A stretch of DNA of 40,249 bases from a virus. Location of the stretch: positions 1-40,249 of the IMG/VR virus record IMGVR_UViG_3300031566_013562. One strand, given 5' to 3'. The notes under the pieces were generated by a model. The model was given only the letters and a program-made list of their open reading frames with translations, searched no databases and was not told the origin of the DNA. Numbering within the stretch: the stretch's first letter is position 1; the number at the start of each line of letters is the position of its first letter. Positions 22,107 to 39,784 of the stretch are shown in pieces. A program made the position numbers and the translations under genes.

Positions 22107-22604
22107 ATGAAAGATCAGGCCATTAATGGGCAAATTAGACACAAAATGATAACTTTGATTTTAGACGACGGATCAAAATTTGGCGATGTTGCAACTAAAG
22201 AAGCCCTTAGTATAGCAAATGAGAAAGGATTAGATCTTGTAGAAGTTTCCGGTCCAGATAAGAATAATTTCGCAATTTGTAAAATTCTTGATTATGGCAA
22301 ATTAAAATATAAACAATCAAAAAAAGATAGGCACCAACCTAAATCCGTTAGCGCAAAGGAAATGAGAATTAGTTCTGTTATTTCTGAACACGATTTGTTG
22401 GTCAAAAATTGTAAAGTAGAAAAATTTCTTAAGAGCGGGCATAGGGTAAAATATGTTTTATTTGTAAAAGGAAGACAAAGAAAATTTTTTGAGTCAATGA
22501 GGGAAAAATTCGATCAAGCAATATCTTGTTTTTCTGAATATTCTCATCAAGGTGAAATTAAAATTGGCGAAAATTCAATTGCTGTTTGGCTGACACCTAA
22601 GTGA
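22107..22604 (+). CDS. infC: Phage-encoded translation initiation factor IF-3
   Basis: A full-length IF-3 homologue of 165 residues (bacterial IF-3 is about 170-180). The N-domain has the diagnostic run NGQIRHKMITLILDDG, then ALSIANEKGLDLVEVS and ICKILDYGKLKYKQSKK. A lysine-rich linker joins the C-domain (KEMRISSVISEHDL, KFLKSGHRVKYVLFVKGRQ, NSIAVWLTPK). In bacteria IF-3 binds the 30S subunit, blocks 50S joining and checks start-codon pairing; the C-domain does most of the binding. Here FRGRE of the family reads VKGRQ. It starts with a normal ATG, not the AUU used by E. coli for autoregulation. It sits directly between an unknown gene and the AAA+ ATPase. A role in biasing host ribosomes toward phage mRNA is inference. 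Confidence 0.92.
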   Translation: MKDQAINGQIRHKMITLILDDGSKFGDVATKEALSIANEKGLDLVEVSGPDKNNFAICKILDYGKLKYKQSKKDRHQPKSVSAKEMRISSVISEHDLLVKNCKVEKFLKSGHRVKYVLFVKGRQRKFFESMREKFDQAISCFSEYSHQGEIKIGENSIAVWLTPK

Positions 22605-22617
22605 TGTTGAGGGATTA

Positions 22618-23628
22618 ATGATGGATAATGCAGCTACTACGCAGGAAGCTCATGAAGAAGCTTTGTTTTCTATGGGAGATCCTGTTTTTACAGACGAGCT
22701 TATTGCTCTTTTAAGAATCCGCGCGCCACTAATTTATATAACGTGTAATGAAGAGTATAGATTATTGGCCTTTTTTAAACATCTTTCTGTGGCGAAATCT
22801 TATAAAACGGAAATGTGGGATTGCCATAGAGGGTTATTGGATTTATTAAGTGGCAAAAAATCAAAAATAGCTACAGATGATGTTAAAGATCCAGATATTG
22901 TTCTTGAAAAAATTATAGAAAGTATAGAACATGACGAAGTACAAGCACAATCAATGATTAGTAAGGGAATATCCGGTAATATATTTTTGTTGTTAGATTA
23001 TCATAGATTTTTAAAAGATGCTCTTCCTTCTACGGAAAGAATGTTGAAAAGGATACATTCGATAGAAGATTCTATGACTAGTGTCATCGTAGTGGCTCCA
23101 CATTTTGAATTTACTCCTGCTATAGAGAATTTGTTCCATGTTCTTGATTTTCCACTTCCTAATAAAAAAGAAATATTAGATACAATGTATGATCTTGTGG
23201 ATGCTGTTAAAGATAAAATAAAAGGGATAGCAAAAAATGCGAAATTAAGAGAGGAAGAAATTATACGTTCTGCCACTGGACTAACAATAGTGGAAGCACA
23301 AGCTGCTTTTTCTAAATCAGTTATAAAACATAAAGAATTTAATATCCCTACTATTATAGATATTAAGAAACAGATTATATCCAGAAAAGAAGTGTTAGAA
23401 TATTGTGTTCCTAACGTGACTATGGATGATGTCGGTGGTCTTACACCAATGATAGAATGGTTTAAGAAAAGGAAATTAGCGTTTTCCGATAAGGCGAAAG
23501 AATATGGATTGATAACTCCTCCGTCAGGCACATTGCTCCTGGGAATTCCAGGATGTGTTTTAGGTAAAACAAAAATAAAAATAAAAAAGATTTCTGATAA
23601 AGGAAAACTTAAAATTTTTGAGGAATAA
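22618..23628 (+). CDS. Ycf46-like AAA+ ATPase, N-terminal half, ending in a split-intein N-part
   Basis: Residues 1-312 are the N-extein: a Ycf46-type N-domain (IRAPLIYITCNEEYRLL, ISGNIFLLLDYHRF) followed by the start of the AAA+ module (DVGGLTPMIEWFKKR and TLLLGIPG). The chain stops reading as ATPase within Walker A, after GIPG. Residues 313-336 begin with Cys and look like intein block A (CVLGKTKIKIKK), then end at a TAA. The rest of Walker A (TGKS) is found 1.6 kb downstream in another gene. The half alone cannot bind ATP normally. A GAGGG site precedes ATG 22618 and ATG 22621; either may be used. Ycf46-like proteins are found in cyanobacteria, plastids and large phages; their role is poorly defined. 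Confidence 0.88.
   Translation: MMDNAATTQEAHEEALFSMGDPVFTDELIALLRIRAPLIYITCNEEYRLLAFFKHLSVAKSYKTEMWDCHRGLLDLLSGKKSKIATDDVKDPDIVLEKIIESIEHDEVQAQSMISKGISGNIFLLLDYHRFLKDALPSTERMLKRIHSIEDSMTSVIVVAPHFEFTPAIENLFHVLDFPLPNKKEILDTMYDLVDAVKDKIKGIAKNAKLREEEIIRSATGLTIVEAQAAFSKSVIKHKEFNIPTIIDIKKQIISRKEVLEYCVPNVTMDDVGGLTPMIEWFKKRKLAFSDKAKEYGLITPPSGTLLLGIPGCVLGKTKIKIKKISDKGKLKIFEE
23554..23625 (+). mobile_element. Split intein 1, N-part (24 residues)
   Basis: The intein starts with the nucleophile Cys immediately after the extein Gly of Walker A and carries only block A before a TAA at 23626. Typical split inteins break about 100 residues in; here the break is after 24, like the atypical phage TerL-type split inteins. 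The partner at 24804 supplies all remaining blocks, so the fold is complete only in trans. Confidence 0.82.
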
Positions 23629-23639
23629 TATATAGTCCA

Positions 23640-23658
23640 TTGCCGAGAAACTCGGTAT
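23640..23658 (+). promoter_or_regulatory. Hairpin and TATAAT-like box upstream of the homing endonuclease gene
   Basis: CCGAG (23643-23647) pairs with CTCGG (23651-23655) across an AAA loop, extendable by a G-T and a T-A pair. It is followed by TATAAT at 23658-23663 and TAGGAG before the ATG at 23677. Hairpins upstream of phage homing-endonuclease genes often limit their translation. Here the stem does not cover the ribosome site, so a promoter or RNA-end function is equally possible. Confidence 0.35.
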
Positions 23659-23676
23659 ATAATAGGAGTATATATT

Positions 23677-24588
23677 ATGGAGATTATAGAGAAAAAATTT
23701 GTTAGAAGATGCCCAATCTGTTCCAAAGAATTGTTTCATACCACGAAAAAACATAGGAATAGAGCAGAAAAGCTAGGACAATGGTGTGCAAAGTGTAGAT
23801 CGGCGGAAGTTCAAAGCCGTCCTGCATCAAAAATAATACATAAATTACAGTCAGAAAGGATGAAAAAAAATGTAGGGGAAAAAAATTATTTTTATGGAAG
23901 ACATCATACACAAGAAACTAAAGAAAAAATAGTTGCCAATAGAGATTATTCTATTTGGAAAACAGATGATTTTAAAAAAAAGATGTCAGAAGTTACTTCC
24001 GGGAAAAACAATCCCATGTATGGTAGGTCCCCCTATGATATTTGGTTATTGAAATACGGTAAGGCAGAAGCAGATAAACGCATGGAGAGCTTTAGAAGAA
24101 AAAAATCAGAACAAACCAAGGGGGAAAAAAATCCAATGTATGGACGACCTACTCCCCAAGGAGCAGGAAATGGATGGAGTGGTTGGTATAAAGGATGGTT
24201 TTTTAGAAGTTTAAAAGAACTTTCTTATATGATTCAAGTTATTGAAGTTATGGGCTGGCAGTGGGAGTCGGCGGAAACAAAAGAATTATCCATTCCCTAT
24301 AAGGATTATAAAGGAGATGATAGAACTTATCGCGCCGATTTCTTGATAAATAAGGATACATTGGTCGAAGTAAAGCCAAAGAAGTTGATGACTTCGATTT
24401 CTAATACCTTAAAAAAGGAAGCTGCTGTGCAGTTCTGCGAAGTGAAAGGTTTGCAGTATAAAATGGTAGATGTTAAGAAACTACCAGATGAACGGATACG
24501 AAAGCTATATGATAGCGGGCAAATAAAGTTTACAAAAACCTATGACAAAAAGATGAAAGAAAAAATAAAGATGGAGAATGCAATATGA
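23677..24588 (+). CDS. Free-standing homing endonuclease (zinc finger, NUMOD, PD-(D/E)XK)
   Basis: A 303-residue nuclease gene placed exactly in the break between the two intein halves. The N-terminus has a CPIC...WCAKC zinc finger (Cys12, 15, 37, 40). Next are three NUMOD3-like DNA-binding motifs (NYFYGRHHTQETKEKI; NPMYGR near 113; NPMYGR near 153). The C-terminus is a PD-(D/E)XK nuclease core: Glu in SLKELSYM, then RADF (Asp221) and EVK (Glu231, Lys233), followed by a TnsA-like helix region. Homing endonucleases cut alleles lacking the element and so spread it. It has its own TAGGAG site and a separate start, so it is not part of the intein polypeptide. The last bases overlap a small downstream frame. 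Confidence 0.85.
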   Translation: MEIIEKKFVRRCPICSKELFHTTKKHRNRAEKLGQWCAKCRSAEVQSRPASKIIHKLQSERMKKNVGEKNYFYGRHHTQETKEKIVANRDYSIWKTDDFKKKMSEVTSGKNNPMYGRSPYDIWLLKYGKAEADKRMESFRRKKSEQTKGEKNPMYGRPTPQGAGNGWSGWYKGWFFRSLKELSYMIQVIEVMGWQWESAETKELSIPYKDYKGDDRTYRADFLINKDTLVEVKPKKLMTSISNTLKKEAAVQFCEVKGLQYKMVDVKKLPDERIRKLYDSGQIKFTKTYDKKMKEKIKMENAI

Positions 24589-24817
24589 GGATTTTGAATG
24601 GCGACTGTATCGATCAGGGGACCAGATTAAGTTAGCATTAAAAAATAGTGATTATGACTATTTTAGCGGTTTATATGAGGCTACTATTGATGTGTCGCCG
24701 GGAAGGGGTAATAAACTCAATCAGGTTTATTCAGAAGGGCTTTATGGGACCTGGAAGGGTTTAAAAAAGTTTGATCCAAATTCTGCTAGATTGGAGACAA
24801 TTCATGAAATTGCATGA
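24578..24817 (+). CDS. Small hypothetical frame in the intein break
   Basis: A 79-residue frame that begins inside the nuclease gene's last codons and ends 14 bases into the C-intein gene. The sequence (GDQIKLALKNSDYDYFSGLY, then YGTWKGLKKFDPNS) is protein-like but unrecognised. GGAG is only one base before its ATG, which is too close. A different ATG at 24585 has better spacing (seven bases) but its frame stops after 16 codons. It may be a small gene, a frameshifted relic, or a leader whose translation couples to the C-intein gene. Confidence 0.35.
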   Translation: MQYEDFEWRLYRSGDQIKLALKNSDYDYFSGLYEATIDVSPGRGNKLNQVYSEGLYGTWKGLKKFDPNSARLETIHEIA

Positions 24818-25181
24818 TGAAAAAGAAATGACAATTGAGGAGTTCTTTCTCCTTTGTGAGCAGGAAGAAGGACAATATCAAATAGATACACCAGATGGCT
24901 GGCAAGAGATACAATCTCTTGTAAGGAAGAAAAATAAGGAATGTTATAACCTTATTACAGAAGATGGGATTGAATTAGGGTGTTCTAATGATCATATGGT
25001 CCTTACGAAGGAGGGTTGGAAAAAAGCTGAAGATATTAATGTAGAAAATGATCTTGTAGAAACTGCAAATGGGTTCAAAGCTGTAATCGCCAAAGAATAT
25101 ATCGGAAATCATAATACGTTTGATTTGTCGGTTAATCATAAAAACCAAAGATACTATTCTAATAATATCATATCCCATAAT
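24804..25181 (+). mobile_element. Split intein 1, C-part (126 residues)
   Basis: It carries the region missing from the N-part: a helical start (EMTIEEFFLLCEQEE), block B (NLITEDGIELGCSNDH, with the conserved His), block N4 (GWKKAEDINVENDLV), block F (TFDLSVNHKNQRYY) and the terminal SHN. The next residue, Thr of TGKS, is the +1 extein nucleophile. Combined length 150 residues, so a mini-intein without its own nuclease domain. Confidence 0.85.
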
Positions 25182-26426
25182 ACAGGTAAGTCCTTATGTG
25201 CAAAAGCTTTAGCGTCATTATACGAGATGCCATTACTTAGATTAGACTTCGGGAGATTATTCGGTAGTTTTGTGGGAGATTCGGAACGGAATGCTAGAGA
25301 AGCTATTAAACTTGCAGAAGCAATAGCACCTTGTGTAACGGGGGATACGATTGTATCAGTTAGTTTAGGAGGAGATGTTTCTCGCAGATATAAGATATCC
25401 GATTTATTTGATTCTATGAAAATTGGATTGTTTAACTATTGGGATGATAATGGAGATTATCTGGAACGATTGACTGATGGAACAGAGATAGCTCGTGCTG
25501 CATCTGATATAAAGATTAATGCTTATGATATTGAGAATGGCAAGCTAATAAGAACTAATTTAAAAGCGATTATAAGAAGACCAAAGATTTCTAGAAAGAT
25601 ATTCAAGGTGGTAACTGATAATAACAAATCAATAGAAGTTACAGGAAATCATAATTTTTTTGTTAGAAATAACGAAGAAGATAAGTGGAAAAAAGCAGAG
25701 GAATTGGATGGCGAAAAAGATTATCTTTTGGAATATATTGATGGGAATTTTTTTCCCCGAAAAATAAAGAATATTGAGGAAACTCAAGAAATAAAGTTTG
25801 TTTATGATCCTTCTTGTGAATCTCCTCATAACTATTTAGCGGAAGGTTTTATAAATCATAATTGCATCCTCTGGATTGACGAAGTTGAAAAGGGACTTGC
25901 CGGAGCCAAATCATCAGGACAAACTGATGGAGGAACTACCAGTAGAGTGGTCGGTAGTTTTTTAACTTGGATGCAAGAAAAAGTAAAACCTGTATTTGTC
26001 TTTTGCACTGCAAATGATTACGAACAGATACAACCAGCTTTTATGAGACGTTTCGACGAAGTATTTTTTGTAGATCTGCCTATTTTAACTGAACGGAAGC
26101 AGATATTTGGAGTTCTTCTGAAAAGATATAAAAGGGACCCAAAGGATTTTGATCTTGATTGTCTTTCGCAATCATCTGATAAATATAGTGGCGCAGAGAT
26201 AGAGAAAATTATAAAAGAAGCTCTTTATGAAGGCATGTCTGATAATTACCGGAAGATAACTACAACAGATTTATTAAAGGTGATGGAACCTTTTATTCCT
26301 TTAGCTAAATCGAGAGAAGAGGAAATAGAAGAATTAAGAAGCTGGGCAGCTACAAAATGCCGCAGAGCCAATTGTGTGGAAGTAGAAAAAATAACAACCA
26401 GAAAAAAAGCTTCATTAGATTTATGA
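24804..26426 (+). CDS. Ycf46-like AAA+ ATPase, C-terminal half, with C-intein and a second intein
   Basis: GGAGA six bases before ATG 24804 sets the start. Residues 1-126 are the C-part of split intein 1, ending in His-Asn. Residues 127-176 return to ATPase sequence with TGKSLCAKAL (rest of Walker A) and LFGSFVGDSERNAR. Residues 177-353 are a second intein. Residues 354-540 finish the enzyme: Walker B CILWIDEVEKGL, then FCTANDYEQI (sensor 1), the arginine-finger region FMRRFDEVFFVDLP and SGAEIEKIIKEAL (sensor 2 region). Joined with the 312 upstream residues the mature protein would be about 549 residues, a plausible Ycf46-like size. Trans-splicing and cis-splicing are both needed. The stop overlaps the next gene in an ATGA. 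Confidence 0.88.
   Translation: MKLHDEKEMTIEEFFLLCEQEEGQYQIDTPDGWQEIQSLVRKKNKECYNLITEDGIELGCSNDHMVLTKEGWKKAEDINVENDLVETANGFKAVIAKEYIGNHNTFDLSVNHKNQRYYSNNIISHNTGKSLCAKALASLYEMPLLRLDFGRLFGSFVGDSERNAREAIKLAEAIAPCVTGDTIVSVSLGGDVSRRYKISDLFDSMKIGLFNYWDDNGDYLERLTDGTEIARAASDIKINAYDIENGKLIRTNLKAIIRRPKISRKIFKVVTDNNKSIEVTGNHNFFVRNNEEDKWKKAEELDGEKDYLLEYIDGNFFPRKIKNIEETQEIKFVYDPSCESPHNYLAEGFINHNCILWIDEVEKGLAGAKSSGQTDGGTTSRVVGSFLTWMQEKVKPVFVFCTANDYEQIQPAFMRRFDEVFFVDLPILTERKQIFGVLLKRYKRDPKDFDLDCLSQSSDKYSGAEIEKIIKEALYEGMSDNYRKITTTDLLKVMEPFIPLAKSREEEIEELRSWAATKCRRANCVEVEKITTRKKASLDL
25332..25862 (+). mobile_element. Intein 2 (177-residue mini-intein) before Walker B
   Basis: It begins Cys-Val-Thr-Gly-Asp-Thr (block A) after extein Pro and ends INHN before extein Cys of CILWIDE. 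Block B is VTDNNKSIEVTGNHNFFV, with Gly-Asn-His, and block F is FVYDPSCESPHNYLAEG. No LAGLIDADG or HNH region fits in its length, so it probably splices but cannot home by itself. Confidence 0.85.
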
Positions 26427-29910: not shown

Positions 29911-30159
29911 ATGCCGCAGAAGAAGAAAAAATCGTCTAAAATAAATTGGGGCGTTATTGCAGAGGCACGGATATCTCTGCTGGATCGTGTTTTCTTATGT
30001 CCTGCTTGTGGAGGAGAAGGATATGATTTGGATAAGGCTTATGTCTATGGAGAGGATTTCCCGTGTACAAAATGCAAATCAACTGGATCCCGTTTTTGGA
30101 TATGCTACAAAATAAAATGTAGATTTATTGATTTTTTTAGGAAATTCAAATGGAGATAA
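29911..30159 (+). CDS. Small DnaJ-type zinc-finger protein
   Basis: An 82-residue basic protein with two Cys pairs in DnaJ-like form, CPACGGEGY and CTKCKSTG, that should bind one zinc ion. A lysine-rich start (PQKKKKSSK) and a basic aromatic C-terminus (CRFIDFFRKFKW) flank it. No J domain is present. Such small CxxCxG proteins are frequent in phages and may act on protein or RNA partners. The start codon has a weak ribosome site. It overlaps the methyltransferase start by ten bases. Confidence 0.6.
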   Translation: MPQKKKKSSKINWGVIAEARISLLDRVFLCPACGGEGYDLDKAYVYGEDFPCTKCKSTGSRFWICYKIKCRFIDFFRKFKWR

Positions 30160-32129
30160 AAAACAAAGAACAAGAAGATCGTAATAAGCTGCTAGATCAG
30201 GCGGGAGTATTAAATAAAATAATATACAGTGATGTAATTGACGGGCTCAGGATGGTTCCGGACAATACTGTATCATTGGTGTTCACTTCTTGTCCCTACA
30301 ACGTAGATATAAAATATGGTTCTCATAATGACGCTCTGTCTTTCCCTGTGTATTTAGATTGGTTAAAGGGGGTTTGGTCCGAGTGCAAGAGAGTTTTGCG
30401 TCCTGGGGGACGCCTGGCGATAAATATAGATACTGTACGCAATGTAGATGATGATTCTGAGTATTTGCATCCTATAGGATATTATTTAACGAAACAAGCT
30501 AAAGAAATAGGTCTACTTCCATTTACGGAAATAGTTTGGTATAAGCAAAATGCAAGTGGAAGAAAAACTGCTTGGGGATGTTACGACAAATTTACTAGAG
30601 TTGTTACTAAGAACGGGCTTAAATATTTTAAAGATGTGACTTATCAAGATGAAATAGCAACTTTAAATATGCAAACTATGGAGATGGAATATCAAAATCC
30701 TATTTCTATTATAGAATATAAATATGAAGGAAATATGTATAGGATTAAATCTCGCTCATTTGACCTATTGGTTACACCAGATCATAATATGTTTTATAAA
30801 AAAAGTAGCGGGGAATTGGGGTTAAGAAAGATTAAGGAAATGCCTAAATGCTTTTGTATACCACAAGGGCATAATGGGATAAAATTTAATTACGAAGAAA
30901 AAAAATATTTTTATTTACCAGTTATTAGTTATGGGAAAAGATCAAGGAAATCTTATATAAATAAGAATACAATAAAAATAGATATGAAAGATTGGATAAT
31001 GTTCCTTGGTATATATCTAACTGATGGGTCGGTTTATTATGATGAACGTAGGGGAAGTTATACTACATCTATTTATCAATCAAAAAAAACATATTTGCAG
31101 GAGATAAAAGATCTGTTGCATAGATTGCCATTCAATTTTAAGTATAAGGAAAATAAAAAAGAATATTATACATGTTCTAAGCAATTGGCAAGTTTTTTAA
31201 ATGGTTTTTCTAAGAAAAATGAAAGAGAAATACCAAATTTTATCATGCAATGTACTATCCCGCAAAAGAAATTATTTATTGAATGGCTGGTCAAGGGAGA
31301 TGGATCTATAGCGAGGAATGGATCTATAAGGTTATATATTGCATCAGAGGCTTTTGTAAAAAAAATAATAGTATTATTATCAGAATGTGGATATGCATTT
31401 TCCCATTCAATACGAAAAAAACAGAAACCTAAGTTGGTAAAAACCGGCAAATTGGCTGGTAGAATTATGAATTGTAATATAAGGTTGCAAGAAATAAAGA
31501 TAAAGATATCTAATAATTATTATATAAGAGAAAATGAAAATATTTCTCAAGAAAAATATTCTGGAATGGTTTATTGTTTAGAACTCAACAATCATGTAAT
31601 GTTTGTTGAGCGTAACGGCAAATTCACTTGGTGCGGCAATTCTTGGTGTTCGTCTTCGTTACCAAATATCCGTAGGGTCCATGAGTATATTTATGTTTTT
31701 TCAAAAGACCAATTTCGTCTCGATGGTGATTCCGAATTATCTGATATGGAAGCTGAAGAATTTGAACAGTGGACTCTTTCTACTTGGTTTATATGTCCTG
31801 AGACAAAAAATATGGGTGGACATCCAGCTAGTTTTCCTGAAGAACTTGTTCGGAGAGCCATAAAATTGTGGACTTATAGAGGAGATATTGTTTTAGATCC
31901 GTTTGTAGGTTCTGGCACAACGGCTTGTGTTGCTAATAGATTAATGAGGAAATATGTAGGAATCGATAATTGTTTGGAGTATGTTAAATATGCGAGAGAT
32001 AGGATAAATTCTTCTCCAGATATGTTTGAAGAGGATTATGTTCCAAGATCAGAAAGGCTTGCGATACGAAAAAAAGCAAGAATGGTAGAAAATGAAGAAA
32101 ATGGGATCGATACCATCGATGGAGCCTAG
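30150..32129 (+). CDS. Beta-class DNA methyltransferase interrupted by a LAGLIDADG intein
   Basis: A 659-residue precursor. Removing the intein (residues 144-497) leaves a 305-residue methyltransferase of the N4-cytosine/N6-adenine beta class. Catalytic motif IV is TSCPY (46-50) near the N-terminus, and the SAM-binding motif DPFVGSGTT (583-591) is near the C-terminus, which is the beta-class order. The host motif WG-SW is split exactly at Gly-Ser. Cys replaces the usual Pro in the TSPPY version of motif IV, so target base choice is uncertain. An AGGA about seven bases before ATG 30150 sets the start. No cognate restriction enzyme is visible; together with the D12 enzyme this gives the phage two orphan methyltransferases. 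Confidence 0.88.
   Translation: MEIKNKEQEDRNKLLDQAGVLNKIIYSDVIDGLRMVPDNTVSLVFTSCPYNVDIKYGSHNDALSFPVYLDWLKGVWSECKRVLRPGGRLAINIDTVRNVDDDSEYLHPIGYYLTKQAKEIGLLPFTEIVWYKQNASGRKTAWGCYDKFTRVVTKNGLKYFKDVTYQDEIATLNMQTMEMEYQNPISIIEYKYEGNMYRIKSRSFDLLVTPDHNMFYKKSSGELGLRKIKEMPKCFCIPQGHNGIKFNYEEKKYFYLPVISYGKRSRKSYINKNTIKIDMKDWIMFLGIYLTDGSVYYDERRGSYTTSIYQSKKTYLQEIKDLLHRLPFNFKYKENKKEYYTCSKQLASFLNGFSKKNEREIPNFIMQCTIPQKKLFIEWLVKGDGSIARNGSIRLYIASEAFVKKIIVLLSECGYAFSHSIRKKQKPKLVKTGKLAGRIMNCNIRLQEIKIKISNNYYIRENENISQEKYSGMVYCLELNNHVMFVERNGKFTWCGNSWCSSSLPNIRRVHEYIYVFSKDQFRLDGDSELSDMEAEEFEQWTLSTWFICPETKNMGGHPASFPEELVRRAIKLWTYRGDIVLDPFVGSGTTACVANRLMRKYVGIDNCLEYVKYARDRINSSPDMFEEDYVPRSERLAIRKKARMVENEENGIDTIDGA
30579..31640 (+). 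mobile_element. Intein 3 with LAGLIDADG nuclease in the methyltransferase
   Basis: 354 residues, from Cys after WG to Asn before Ser-Trp (FTWCGN ending). Block A region CYDKFTRVV, block B FDLLVTPDHNMFY, LAGLIDADG motifs LGIYLTDGSV and EWLVKGDGSIA, block F MVYCLELNNHVMFVERNG. The ending Gly-Asn instead of His-Asn is a known variant. Both nuclease acidic residues look intact, so it may still home. Confidence 0.86.
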
Positions 32130-35062: not shown

Positions 35063-36352
35063 ATGCAAAATAAGGATTTCGTTCATACACATGTACATAC
35101 GAGTATGAGTTCATTCGACGGATTAGCTCCTATTCCAAAATTGGTTATGAGAGCCAGAAAAATGGGTTTTGAAGCTTTGGCATTAACTGATCACGGTAAT
35201 GTTGGAGGACTAATTACTTTTGTTAATGAGTGCAAGCTTACTCAGGATAAAAAAGGAAATGATATTCCTTATCCTATTTTGAAGCCTTTACTTGGTGAAG
35301 AGTTTTATATGAGTTCTGGACATACTAATAAGTCTAAAGAATTGCAACCAAGGATGAGAAAGGGAAATCATCATCTTGTTTTGATTGCAACTAATTTTAA
35401 GGGATATCAGAATTTATGTAGATTGTCTCATAAAAGTTGGATTGATGGTTTTTATATGGACCCTCGAATAGATTTTGATCTTTTGTCTACTCATTCCGAA
35501 GGGTTAATATGTTCTACAGCTTGTTTGGCGGGTCTTGTAAATAGTCAGTTGATGTATGATAGATATGATTTAGCCAAGAAAACTTGTGGAATATTTAAAG
35601 AAATATTTGGAGAAAGATTTTTTCTGGAAGTAATGTATCATGGTATTCGGATGGAACAAGAAATCATGCCAGATATTTTGAAACTTGGGAGGGAATTGTC
35701 TATAAAAGTTATCGCTTCTTGTGATTGTCATTATATAGATAAAAAGCAAGCGGATAGTCATGAGATGTTTATGTGTATGTCTACTGGCAAATGTATGAAA
35801 GATCCTAATAGATTGAAATTTCCATATCCAGAATTTTATTTAAAAAGTGCTGATGAGATGTTGAAGATATTTAAAAATATTCCTTACGTTTTGACAAATA
35901 CAAAATTAGTAGCTGATATGGTGGATGATGAAGATATAGACAAAAATTTATTTGGCGGAATGAAGCTTCCTAAATTTGATTTGCCAGAAGGAAAAACAGC
36001 GTTCCAGTATCTTAAAGAACTGTCTATAGAGGGGATGAAAGAATTAGGATTTGATAAGAGCAAACCTCATATAGAAGCCTTAAAAAAAGAGCTGGGAGAT
36101 ATTAAAGTAGCATGGGAAAATAATGGATATGACTTTGCTACATATTTCTTAATAGTTTGGGATATAATAAATTTTGCGAAGAAAAATGATATAATGACAG
36201 GTCCTGGGAGAGGATCTGGGTTTGGAAGTATTTTACTTAAATGTCTGGGAGTAACTTGGGGAGCAGACCCAATCGAGTATGGGCTTTTGTGGGAAAGGTT
36301 TTTAGCGTTCGCGCCGCGGAGGGTGTTGATGGAGAAAGACTTTGGGTTTTAA
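35063..36352 (+). CDS. dnaE: DNA polymerase III alpha subunit, N-terminal half (PHP and first palm part)
   Basis: 429 residues. It opens with an intact PHP domain: HTHVH, TDHGN, LLGEEFYM, a conserved HH and CDCHYID, so the metal ligands appear present. The palm begins with YFLIVWDIINFA and GPGRGSGFGS (380-389), the nucleotide-binding glycine motif. It stops after ERFLAFAPRRVLMEKDFGF, just before the place where the catalytic Asp pair would normally follow. The Asp residues are in the next gene. PHP domains with full metal sites can proofread in some polymerases; that is inference here. AAGGGAT lies about nine bases before ATG 35063. Confidence 0.9.
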   Translation: MQNKDFVHTHVHTSMSSFDGLAPIPKLVMRARKMGFEALALTDHGNVGGLITFVNECKLTQDKKGNDIPYPILKPLLGEEFYMSSGHTNKSKELQPRMRKGNHHLVLIATNFKGYQNLCRLSHKSWIDGFYMDPRIDFDLLSTHSEGLICSTACLAGLVNSQLMYDRYDLAKKTCGIFKEIFGERFFLEVMYHGIRMEQEIMPDILKLGRELSIKVIASCDCHYIDKKQADSHEMFMCMSTGKCMKDPNRLKFPYPEFYLKSADEMLKIFKNIPYVLTNTKLVADMVDDEDIDKNLFGGMKLPKFDLPEGKTAFQYLKELSIEGMKELGFDKSKPHIEALKKELGDIKVAWENNGYDFATYFLIVWDIINFAKKNDIMTGPGRGSGFGSILLKCLGVTWGADPIEYGLLWERFLAFAPRRVLMEKDFGF

Positions 36353-36406
36353 AAAAATAAAGGGTTGTTACCAAAAGTGCTGCGGTTTTAACTGTTGAGG
36401 AAAAAA
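36303..36406 (+). other. DnaE break region: GC-rich junction and same-frame stops
   Basis: The two DnaE genes are in the same reading frame. Between them are TAA at 36350 and a second TAA at 36389, then GAGG six bases before ATG 36407. Just before the first stop is an unusually GC-rich run (GCGTTCGCGCCGCGGAGGG), unlike the AT-rich surroundings. The spacer is too short for an intron or intein. Confidence 0.6.
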
Positions 36407-39400
36407 ATGGCGGATTTTCAAAAAATAAAAAATGAAATTATATCTAGTATCCAAGAGTCTATAGGTAATGTAGATCCTCGTATTCACGAAGAGCTAGAGT
36501 TGCTTGAAATGACTGATGGGATAAATGATGTAAATAATTTGGAGCATTTCTATGAGATATGGAAATCAGGTAAAAGAAATGGCACTAAAAATGCGGTTAA
36601 TAGTTTAACTGCTTATCAGCTTGGGATAACATCGAAGGAGCCAGATGGGGATTTTCTTCCTGAACGCAGGATTTTTGCTAGACCTGGTTTCCCAGATGTT
36701 GATATGGACTTCGATTTTTTCCGCCGGCAAGAAATATACGATTATATTATAGATAAATATGGACGTGAAAATGTTGGAAATATAGGAACATATCAAGCTT
36801 TAAAATTGAAATCTGCTATAAGAAGGATAGGGAAAGCTCTTGATGTTGCTGGATCTTTTCATAAGGGACAAAAAGAATATGTTTCAGATAATGAGGCGAA
36901 AGTATCTGAAATTATTGATTCTCTTCCATTTCAAAGCGGTGCATTTATAAAAATGACCGATAGGGATGGCGAGCTTCATGTTATTAAAACCATTCGAGAT
37001 GCTTATAAACATTGCGAAAGTTTTAGAGCTTATATAGATAAATATCCTGACATACTTAAATATTCGGATGATATAGAAGGATTATTAACAATTTACTCGT
37101 GCCATCCCGCCGGAATCGTCATAGGAAACGAGCCTCTTGAGAATATTGCACCATTACGACGTGCTAAAAAAGATTCCTATGCTACTCAATATGTTTACGA
37201 AGAGTTAGAACAATTGGGACTTATAAAATTTGATATATTAGCTTTAAGTACATTAACAGTAGTAGACAATACAGTTAAGTTTATTAAGCAAAATTATGAT
37301 ATTGATATAGATATAAAGAATTTACCACTAGATGATAAGCCTACTTTAAGTTTATATAGGTCTGGTAATCTTAAAGGTGTTTTTCAGTGCGAATCAAAAC
37401 CCATGCAACAGGTTATGAGGGATATTGGAGTTGATAGGTTTGATGATATCGTTGCTGCTATAGCGCTATTTAGGCCAGGTCCTATGGCTAGTATCCCAGA
37501 ATATTGTGCTAGAAAAAGAGGAGAGAAAATTGTAGATTATTTCCATCCTAAGATAGAGCCTTTTGTCAAACCTTATTTAGAGGAAACTTTAGGAATTTTA
37601 ATCTATCAAGAATCCTTGATGCAGATTTGCAATTCGTTAGCGGGTTTCTCTATTACTGACGGATATATTATGATAAAAGCTGTCGGTAAGAAGAAAAAAT
37701 CCTTGATGGATAAATTTGCTAAGCAATTTGTTGAGGGTTGTGTTGGTAATGGAATTGACAAAAACATTGCTATAGAATATTGGAATAGATTCATAACTCC
37801 TTTTGCATTATATGGTTTTAATAAGTGTTTTAGTGAAGACTCTATTGTGGCGGATTCTATGACAGGTGAACTAATCAATATGCGAGACGTATTTAATCGA
37901 TTTAATAAAAAGGAAAAAATATATGTTAATGCGGTTAATGACAAAGGAAAAATAGTATCTAGACCGATTGTTGCAGTATCTTCAAATGGAAAAAAACTTG
38001 TATATAAAGTTCAAACCAGAAGTGGTTATACTTTACGGGTAACCAAAGATCATAAAATTAAAACTCCTATTGGTATGATTCCTTTAAGCGATATTAATAT
38101 AGGAGATTATGTGGCGACTTCTCGTTGTCTTTTAGCGAAAAAACCTTCTGAAAAAATAGAGAAGCACGAATTGATAACTCTGGCGCATTTAATAACGGAA
38201 GGAAATACATGTCATCCTACTACTTTGTATTTTTACAATAATGATATTGATTTAATTAACGATTTTAACAGATTCGTTTCATGTTTTGATGATAGTTTAG
38301 TTCAAGTTATTGAACAAGATGAAAAAAGATATGTTGCGTCTGTTAACACCGGTCGAATAAAAAATAAAAAAACTGTTCCTTGGAATAAAGGATTGACAAA
38401 AGATGATTATAAAACTAGAAAATCTACAGTTGGACAAAATGTTTCTGGGGTATATAAATGGGCATTAAATTTGGGTTTGATCTATAAAAAAGCTACAGAA
38501 AAAGTTGTTCCTAAGATAATATTTGGATTGACCGATAACGAAATAGAATTATTTGTTGGGAGATTATGGTCCGGTGATGGGCATATAACATACAAAAAGG
38601 AATTTTCATATCCATATTATTCTACATCTAGTAAACAATTGGCATATGATGTTCGCATGCTTTTATTAAGATTGGGGATATTGTCTAAATTAACTAAGAA
38701 AAAATTTAAATATAAAGATTCTGTAAAAATAGGATATACTGTATCTCTTTATGATAAGAATTCTTTATCGTTATTTATAAATAGGATAACAAAACATATT
38801 ATTGGTAGAAAAGAAGATATTTTAAGGCTGAAATATTATTTTGGGCAGATAAAAGACCATCCGTCTCAAAGAGATGTTATTCCAATACATTTTAAGTCTT
38901 TAATTCGTGAAGAGATATCTAAAAAAAATATTAGTTTAGCATCAGCATGTGTAAACTCTGGATTATGTTCAAATAATTTTGCATTCGCTGCTCCGTATCT
39001 TAAAAAAGGGATAAAATATAAGAAACATAGTTATTTTAGGGATAATATTAGGAAATTGGCCGAGGCTATAGATTCAAAAGAATTAAAACAATTAACTAAT
39101 TCTGATATACTGTGGGATAGAATTGTGGATATATCTCCAGATGGAGAATGCGATACTTTTGATGTAACAGTTGAAACAGATCACAATTTAGTAGTTGACG
39201 GAATTATTACATCAAATAGTCACAGTCTAGCCTATGCTATACTTTCTTATTCTTGTGCATATTTAAAAGCGAATTATGCTGATGAATTTTTATGTACTTT
39301 ATTGAATGTAGAAAATAATAGAAGGAAGTACGATAAGGTTTTAGATTATGAAAAAGATGTGAAAAGGAATGGTATTACTATATTACCATTAGATTTAAAT

Positions 39401-39784
39401 AAAAGTGGTGTAGATTATACGATAGCAAAAAAGAAAGATCCTATGTCTGGAGTTCATAATACTGAATTTCGTTCTAGCCTTATGACAAAAGGGATTAGTA
39501 AAGAATCTGCACAAGAGATAGCTGCTCATCAACCATATAAAGATTTGAGAGATTTGGCTTTTAAAACGGATACAAAATTGGTTGGGAAGGAGGCGATATC
39601 TGCATTAGTCGTGGCTGGCGTATTCGATCACCAAAATGTTAGAGAGCCAGGGAAAAGACGAATCTCTATGGAAAAATTTCGTATAGCTGTTGTAGAAAAA
39701 TTTCAAAGACTTAGAATAGATATAAAAAAAGCAGGAAATAGGGGCGTAGATAGTATGGATATGTTCGAAGATTTTGACGAATAG
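36407..39784 (+). CDS. dnaE: DNA polymerase III alpha subunit, C-terminal half, with intein
   Basis: 1125 residues as translated, 661 after removing the intein. A ~80-residue leading segment with no close match to normal DnaE precedes FPDVDMDF, where Asp97 and Asp99 equal the catalytic pair of bacterial DnaE (PDIDIDF). The third catalytic Asp is in KFDILALSTL (Asp276). Then come GVFQCES, LFRPGPM and YQESLMQI, all standard for DnaE, and YGFNK-SHSLAYA is split by the intein. The C-terminal part covers the helix-hairpin-helix region (DLAFKTD) but no clear beta-clamp tail or OB fold is seen. With the 429-residue N-half the enzyme totals ~1,090 residues, normal for DnaE. The two chains must pair to act. 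GAGG six bases before ATG 36407; TTG 36395 is unlikely. Confidence 0.9.
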   Translation: MADFQKIKNEIISSIQESIGNVDPRIHEELELLEMTDGINDVNNLEHFYEIWKSGKRNGTKNAVNSLTAYQLGITSKEPDGDFLPERRIFARPGFPDVDMDFDFFRRQEIYDYIIDKYGRENVGNIGTYQALKLKSAIRRIGKALDVAGSFHKGQKEYVSDNEAKVSEIIDSLPFQSGAFIKMTDRDGELHVIKTIRDAYKHCESFRAYIDKYPDILKYSDDIEGLLTIYSCHPAGIVIGNEPLENIAPLRRAKKDSYATQYVYEELEQLGLIKFDILALSTLTVVDNTVKFIKQNYDIDIDIKNLPLDDKPTLSLYRSGNLKGVFQCESKPMQQVMRDIGVDRFDDIVAAIALFRPGPMASIPEYCARKRGEKIVDYFHPKIEPFVKPYLEETLGILIYQESLMQICNSLAGFSITDGYIMIKAVGKKKKSLMDKFAKQFVEGCVGNGIDKNIAIEYWNRFITPFALYGFNKCFSEDSIVADSMTGELINMRDVFNRFNKKEKIYVNAVNDKGKIVSRPIVAVSSNGKKLVYKVQTRSGYTLRVTKDHKIKTPIGMIPLSDINIGDYVATSRCLLAKKPSEKIEKHELITLAHLITEGNTCHPTTLYFYNNDIDLINDFNRFVSCFDDSLVQVIEQDEKRYVASVNTGRIKNKKTVPWNKGLTKDDYKTRKSTVGQNVSGVYKWALNLGLIYKKATEKVVPKIIFGLTDNEIELFVGRLWSGDGHITYKKEFSYPYYSTSSKQLAYDVRMLLLRLGILSKLTKKKFKYKDSVKIGYTVSLYDKNSLSLFINRITKHIIGRKEDILRLKYYFGQIKDHPSQRDVIPIHFKSLIREEISKKNISLASACVNSGLCSNNFAFAAPYLKKGIKYKKHSYFRDNIRKLAEAIDSKELKQLTNSDILWDRIVDISPDGECDTFDVTVETDHNLVVDGIITSNSHSLAYAILSYSCAYLKANYADEFLCTLLNVENNRRKYDKVLDYEKDVKRNGITILPLDLNKSGVDYTIAKKKDPMSGVHNTEFRSSLMTKGISKESAQEIAAHQPYKDLRDLAFKTDTKLVGKEAISALVVAGVFDHQNVREPGKRRISMEKFRIAVVEKFQRLRIDIKKAGNRGVDSMDMFEDFDE
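37826..39217 (+). mobile_element. Intein 4 with LAGLIDADG-type nuclease in DnaE
   Basis: 464 residues between FNK and SHS. It begins CFSEDSIVADS, block B YTLRVTKDHKIKT, nuclease motifs LAHLITEGN and VGRLWSGDGHI, block F CDTFDVTVETDHNLVV, end ITSN. The first acidic motif carries Glu. A PWNKGLTKDDYKT stretch between the motifs resembles NUMOD-type DNA-binding linkers. The last intein residues lack the usual His before Asn (Ser-Asn). Confidence 0.87.

Follow-up and report, generated by a model that had tools for sequence, protein, structure and literature searches.

Within a 40,249-nucleotide (nt) stretch of viral DNA (IMG/VR record IMGVR_UViG_3300031566_013562, positions 1 to 40,249; hereafter the window, to which all coordinates refer), a gene for an AAA+ ATPase is broken inside its Walker A motif by the two parts of a split intein, and the gene of a free-standing homing-type nuclease lies between them. 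All features of the locus are on the plus strand. The N-terminal half of the ATPase (22618-23553, 312 residues), which matches phrog_8638 (E 3.5e-42; annotated without function in PHROG), ends in TLLLGIPG and so with the first four Walker A residues. It continues into an intein-N of only 24 residues starting at Cys1 of block A (CVLGKTKIKIKKISDKGKLKIFEE, 23554-23625) and a stop codon (23626-23628). The nuclease gene (23677-24588, 303 residues) follows a leader (23629-23676) that contains an inverted repeat, CCGAG-AAA-CTCGG (23643-23655), an AGGAG Shine-Dalgarno-like site and a stretch, TATAGTCCA, common to the window and to L009 (L-numbers denote other loci that were compared). The intein-C (24804-25181, 126 residues) has an ATG at 24804 preceded by a Shine-Dalgarno-like TTGGAGAC, and carries block B (SNDH), block F (D107) and block G (SHN), the last abutting directly on TGKS, the remainder of Walker A. 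The cut thus falls between GIPG and TGKS. From TGKS the ATPase runs to AIAP (25182-25331), where a second, continuous intein of 177 residues without a nuclease domain (25332-25862) occupies the Walker B site AIAP/CILWIDEVEK; the C-terminal part of the ATPase (25863-26426) then supplies Walker B, the remaining AAA domain and the AAA lid. A first-pass annotation, made from the letters alone, had described the split Walker A, the Cys-led intein-N with its stop, the stand-alone nuclease and the SHN-ending intein-C before TGKS, and in this it was exact to the base; the Walker B intein, an open reading frame (ORF) of 79 residues (24578-24817) that overlaps both the nuclease gene and the intein-C, the recurrence of the split in several phages and a link between the nuclease and P-loops are additions of the present analysis.

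The two ORFs carry complementary, abutting intein pieces that join end to end into 150 residues with a full set of blocks, as had been proposed, and the joined halves match a continuous relative, L193. The splicing residues (Cys1, the block B His, D107, SHN and the +1 Thr) are present in the window and conserved across six loci. Pfam finds Intein_splicing and AAA (1.1e-19) in the downstream ORF, and by sequence the top solved structure for the intein-C profile is VidaL (6vgv, E 3.7e-18); with the Pfam matches of the nuclease given below and the recurrence in other contigs, these matches put the observation beyond chance. The intein-C is predicted to take a Hint/intein-like fold: its model (mean predicted local distance difference test, pLDDT, 84.4) has VidaL as its closest fold (TM-score 0.84 by query), and all 41 matches at E <= 0.001 in the fold search are inteins or intein-like domains. 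The first-pass annotation had allowed that the fold might prove otherwise; its comparison of the short N-part to TerL-type split inteins is amended in that VidaL is the closest solved relative. Once spliced, the predicted protein, called Ycf46-like in the first-pass annotation and AAA by Pfam, would have the Walker A, Walker B and AAA lid expected of an AAA+ ATPase, with AAA_lid_3 at 1.5e-5, just under its Pfam cut-off.

Uninterrupted homologues place the junctions precisely. The joined exteins align without gaps over both the Walker A and the Walker B junction with AAA+ proteins of isolated phages (Rhizobium L338C, Agrobacterium JP1, Aeromonas HJ05, Mycobacterium Shida, Rhodobacter RcTiptonus, Pseudomonas SM1 and a Streptococcus satellite phage). 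Closer orthologues in viral contigs (L198-L201 and L204; 42-54% identity to the ATPase N-half) have an intact Walker A, and intein occupancy is therefore patchy. With the downstream protein alone as query, the viral contigs gave no match, and an alignment-based search was needed to retrieve relatives. Two P-loop genes on one contig (L009, L016, L201) each have a copy of the family's nuclease, and the contig also holds an intact orthologue of the window ATPase.

The nuclease had been guessed to be of the NUMOD/PD-(D/E)XK kind, which Pfam (NUMOD3 1.5e-14, TnsA-like N 1.1e-6) and the predicted fold bear out. A Cys4 zinc-finger-like N-terminus is followed by NUMOD3 repeats and a TnsA-like PD-(D/E)XK domain, in which E181, D221 and E231-x-K233 are invariant in an alignment of 18 sequences. 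Pfam reports these two domains and not Vsr; the predicted structure is about as close to TnsA as to I-Bth0305I, an EDxHD enzyme, with probabilities of 0.94-1.00 and weak E-values (best 0.036, none below 0.001), and the window protein adds to these the NUMOD3 repeats and the zinc-finger-like N-terminus. No match to the nuclease was found among isolated phages.

The same break recurs in other viral contigs. L092 and L192 have the same ATPase with Walker A split and a nuclease, L009 has the split and nuclease in a different AAA+ protein, and L135, at a contig end, holds only the N-half in a Clp_N protein. Because other contigs share the break, whether in the same ATPase or in different AAA+ proteins, the stop at 23626-23628 is not a sequencing error, a doubt that the first-pass annotation had raised. 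The same intein-N element is also present in L009, L092, L190, L192 and L194, and the intein-C parts of the split relatives are 50-61% identical to that of the window; the Walker B intein is absent from L092 and L192 and present in a longer version at the same place in L190. In L190 (same ATPase) and L194 (other AAA+ protein) Walker A is split and the stop is kept, with no nuclease gene: the gaps of 147 and 111 nt hold the C-terminal tail of the nuclease in an open frame, with scores of 79 and 130 that none of 200 shuffles reached. In L193 the ORF is unbroken, and YSPDFIVDGKVLVEVKP, the nuclease active-site stretch, lies at the junction within its intein; since Walker A is changed to GIPR there, this copy may be decaying. 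From the tails and this scar it follows that the nuclease was lost in place in these lineages, leaving, as the sequences read, either a permanently split gene (L190, L194) or a re-fused intein (L193). Trees built from seven inteins and from four nucleases gave support too weak for ordering events and were not used.

We read the locus as a fractured phage gene in which the split intein trans-splices the ATPase and the nuclease in the gap spreads the cassette, with a probability of roughly 0.85. Two polypeptides would be made, the ATPase N-half with the 24-residue intein-N and the 126-residue intein-C with the ATPase C-half and its second intein. The intein halves would associate and splice in trans, restoring the Walker A motif GIPG+TGKS, while the Walker B intein would splice in cis. 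The nuclease would be the mobility part, presumably cutting P-loop codons that are still uninterrupted, in this ATPase gene or its relatives; repair after cleavage would copy the whole cassette in, and the inserted intein would destroy the recognition site in its carrier. Homing is suggested because occupancy is patchy and the nuclease family is associated with P-loops, as set out below, and the proposed interplay of nuclease and intein fits the idea of collaborative homing (PMC2988022).

NUMOD-motif nucleases are common in phage introns, and the intein pieces abut without overlap, so that the gap could be a group I or other intron with its nuclease, RNA splicing of which would leave a continuous cis-intein. 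Covariance models detected no group I intron core in the window or the gap: Rfam has no match in the window at curated cut-offs, and the gap yields chance-level matches only. The gaps of L190 and L194, in which a nuclease-gene tail and the stop persist, are too short for a group I intron, and the intein-C has an ATG of its own and a start that overlaps the nuclease end in L009, L092 and L192; we regard the intron as highly improbable. Nor do we give much credence to a gene killed by nuclease invasion, with its halves decaying, an explanation that the metagenomic origin of the contig and the altered GIPR of the fused L193 would suit. Against such decay, the frames on both sides of the gap are long and open, the splicing residues, AAA motifs and second intein are intact, and several diverged contigs retain the split, two of these having since lost the nuclease. 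Some nuclease-split phage genes do stay functional without splicing, like the Aeh1 nrdA genes-in-pieces (cited in PMC3653736), and DnaE of the window is itself encoded by two ORFs. A two-subunit ATPase of this type is nevertheless hardly credible here, as Walker A itself is cut and both halves terminate in conserved, catalytically equipped intein pieces for which a plain two-subunit enzyme would have no use. Trans-splicing with a mobile nuclease remains the reading that we prefer.

The location of the relatives of the nuclease bears on its target. A profile retrieved about 80 strong relatives among the loci, 67 after removal of near-duplicates. P-loop codons lie within 300 nt of 50 of these 67, whereas the same was true of 1/72 NUMOD3 nucleases from outside the family and 8/356 further ORFs of the same loci; the Fisher values (7e-22 and 1e-41, respectively) are not true probabilities, the sequences being related. 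The 50 comprise 30 intact P-loop gene starts, 17 stop-broken P-loops and three split inteins caught by the pattern. An earlier, stricter pattern, set before stop-broken P-loops were counted and blind to interrupted P-loops, gave 23/71 as compared with 0/72 other NUMOD3 nucleases and 7/430 other ORFs, and the two fractions, 50/67 and 23/71, are to be read together because the pattern was widened after the stop-broken P-loops had been seen. This tie of the nuclease family to P-loop codons is new here.

In 31 loci the nuclease lies upstream of the P-loop gene, and about a dozen of them keep, upstream of the nuclease, a remnant of the 5' end of that gene, broken off at the Walker A GK or immediately ahead of it; the remaining loci are at control level. 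In L156, for example, the remnant FMKICVSGTQCVG compares with YMKICVSGTACVGKT, and in L021 MSHKRIIFVGSTFSG compares with MSHKRVIICGATCSGKT; others occur in L131, L117, L098, L027, L130 and further loci. Such remnants suggest that insertion took place in the P-loop and that a substitute 5' end was provided downstream. A far-side remnant was also sought in 12 loci whose nuclease points away from the P-loop gene, and only L100 beat all its shuffles. At 18 loci next to the nuclease (L010, L013, L018, L025, L089, L090, L093-L095, L098, L100-L102, L105-L107, L109 and L112, with an AAA_33/PNK-like gene), a stop or frame break interrupts the P-loop codons after GVP or similar, over a gap of 5-9 nt. 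A hairpin precedes each of these broken P-loops, its z-scores ranging from -3.8 to -9.0 as against an average of +0.3 in 27 control loci. We would guess at ribosomal bypass as a candidate explanation, by analogy with T4 gene 60, where bypass occurs beside a homing nuclease gene (PMC5009743). The likeness, a stop and a hairpin interrupting a gene next to a nuclease gene, concerns these 18 relatives and not the window itself, and the relatives differ in their gap of 5-9 nt and its position in Walker A; alternatively, the genes with stop-broken P-loops may be dead in those contigs. Beside its P-loop neighbours the nuclease family has a second recurring one, as it also precedes 5'-3' exonuclease-like genes with a conserved N-terminal motif (L111, L119).

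Taken more widely, it seems to us somewhat better than an even chance that the nuclease family homes into P-loop codons of many unrelated phage genes and persists in several ways that spare the gene while spoiling the recognition site, deletion of the nuclease in place then leaving permanently split genes. A split intein would serve where the P-loop lies deep in the protein, as in the window; a replacement 5' gene end would serve where it lies near the protein start; and a third way would be a small insert that contains a stop and follows a strong hairpin, with ribosomal bypass perhaps carrying translation across it. Conserved sites might simply be favoured in general, with no special P-loop specificity of the nuclease: inteins generally prefer P-loop ATPases (PMC5050341), and 17 of the 67 family members lie elsewhere, among them L111 and L119 at exonuclease-like genes and L132 at an RNR split intein. 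Other NUMOD3 nucleases, however, share the P-loop location in one case out of 72, and where 5' remnants lie beyond the nuclease, their breakpoint falls at or close to the GK of Walker A, so that we consider an absence of specificity unlikely, though clearly more plausible than the rivals weighed above.

Several points weigh against our interpretation of the locus and of the nuclease family. The scan did not place those 17 members at a P-loop, and the nuclease target is deduced from where relatives lie. The split relatives all come from metagenomic contigs. In block F the window has Gln where four of the six aligned inteins have His, and the structural model covers the intein-C alone rather than the joined 24+126 chain. 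The 79-residue ORF has no explanation in the split-intein scheme; it has no relatives among the phages, viral contigs and PHROGs searched, and no equivalent lies between nuclease and intein-C in L009, L092 or L192.

The fractured genes that Dassa et al. reportedly described in 2009 from environmental phage DNA are said to have helicase, RNR and other hosts, a long intein-N and a Vsr-like nuclease. The window shares with these the two gene halves each with an intein piece, the nuclease gene in the gap and the origin in environmental phage DNA, and differs in its AAA+ Walker A host, its 24-residue intein-N and its NUMOD3 and TnsA-like nuclease. Gene fracture accompanied by split inteins and nucleases is in itself known (Dassa et al. 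2009, NAR 37:2560, cited in PMC3653736). Short intein-N pieces are likewise known, that of PolB16 OarG having 15 residues (PMC10189870); the window shares a very short intein-N and a long intein-C with the atypically split VidaL, PolB16 OarG and TerL inteins, and its intein-C is about 31% identical to VidaL in structural alignment, in a different host gene. P-loop inteins of a phage ATPase are found in TerL1-a/b of mycobacteriophages, where TerL1-a sits between Lys and Thr (PMC5050341). Both TerL1-a and the window intein lie inside Walker A, but the latter is split and sits three residues earlier, after GIPG. A literature search, mostly outside subscription journals, turned up neither this host site combined with such a nuclease nor a series of in-place losses nor the P-loop link.

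The origin and persistence of natural split inteins is an old question, and in-place nuclease deletion, if our reading is true, would be one route to those without a nuclease. The loci form a graded series (an unbroken gene; a split one with the nuclease; a split one in which a nuclease-gene tail alone is left; one re-fused with a nuclease scar), which connects the split with the nuclease and opens the order of events to testing. A P-loop-linked nuclease family would explain how the same element spread to different AAA+ genes, and a 24-residue intein-N is of the short type wanted for protein semisynthesis.

Further split inteins with nucleases were seen in L132 (RNR-like), L140 (at a P-loop SGKG site), L142 (at an SGCTTAAN site) and L196 (TerL, with two split inteins). 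A gene for the translation initiation factor IF-3 (22107-22604) lies directly upstream of the ATPase in the window and likewise in L092, L192 and L193. Elsewhere in the window, an intein that bears a LAGLIDADG domain interrupts a DNA methylase (30150-32129). The two DnaE ORFs (35063-36352, the PHP part, and 36395-39784, the catalytic part) show no obvious intein at their break, and the second of them contains a LAGLIDADG intein between YGFNK and SHSLAYAIL. In DnaE genes of bacterial genome contigs (L158, L171, L176, L177 and L182-L184), a continuous intein includes a domain from the nuclease family represented in the gap of the ATPase.
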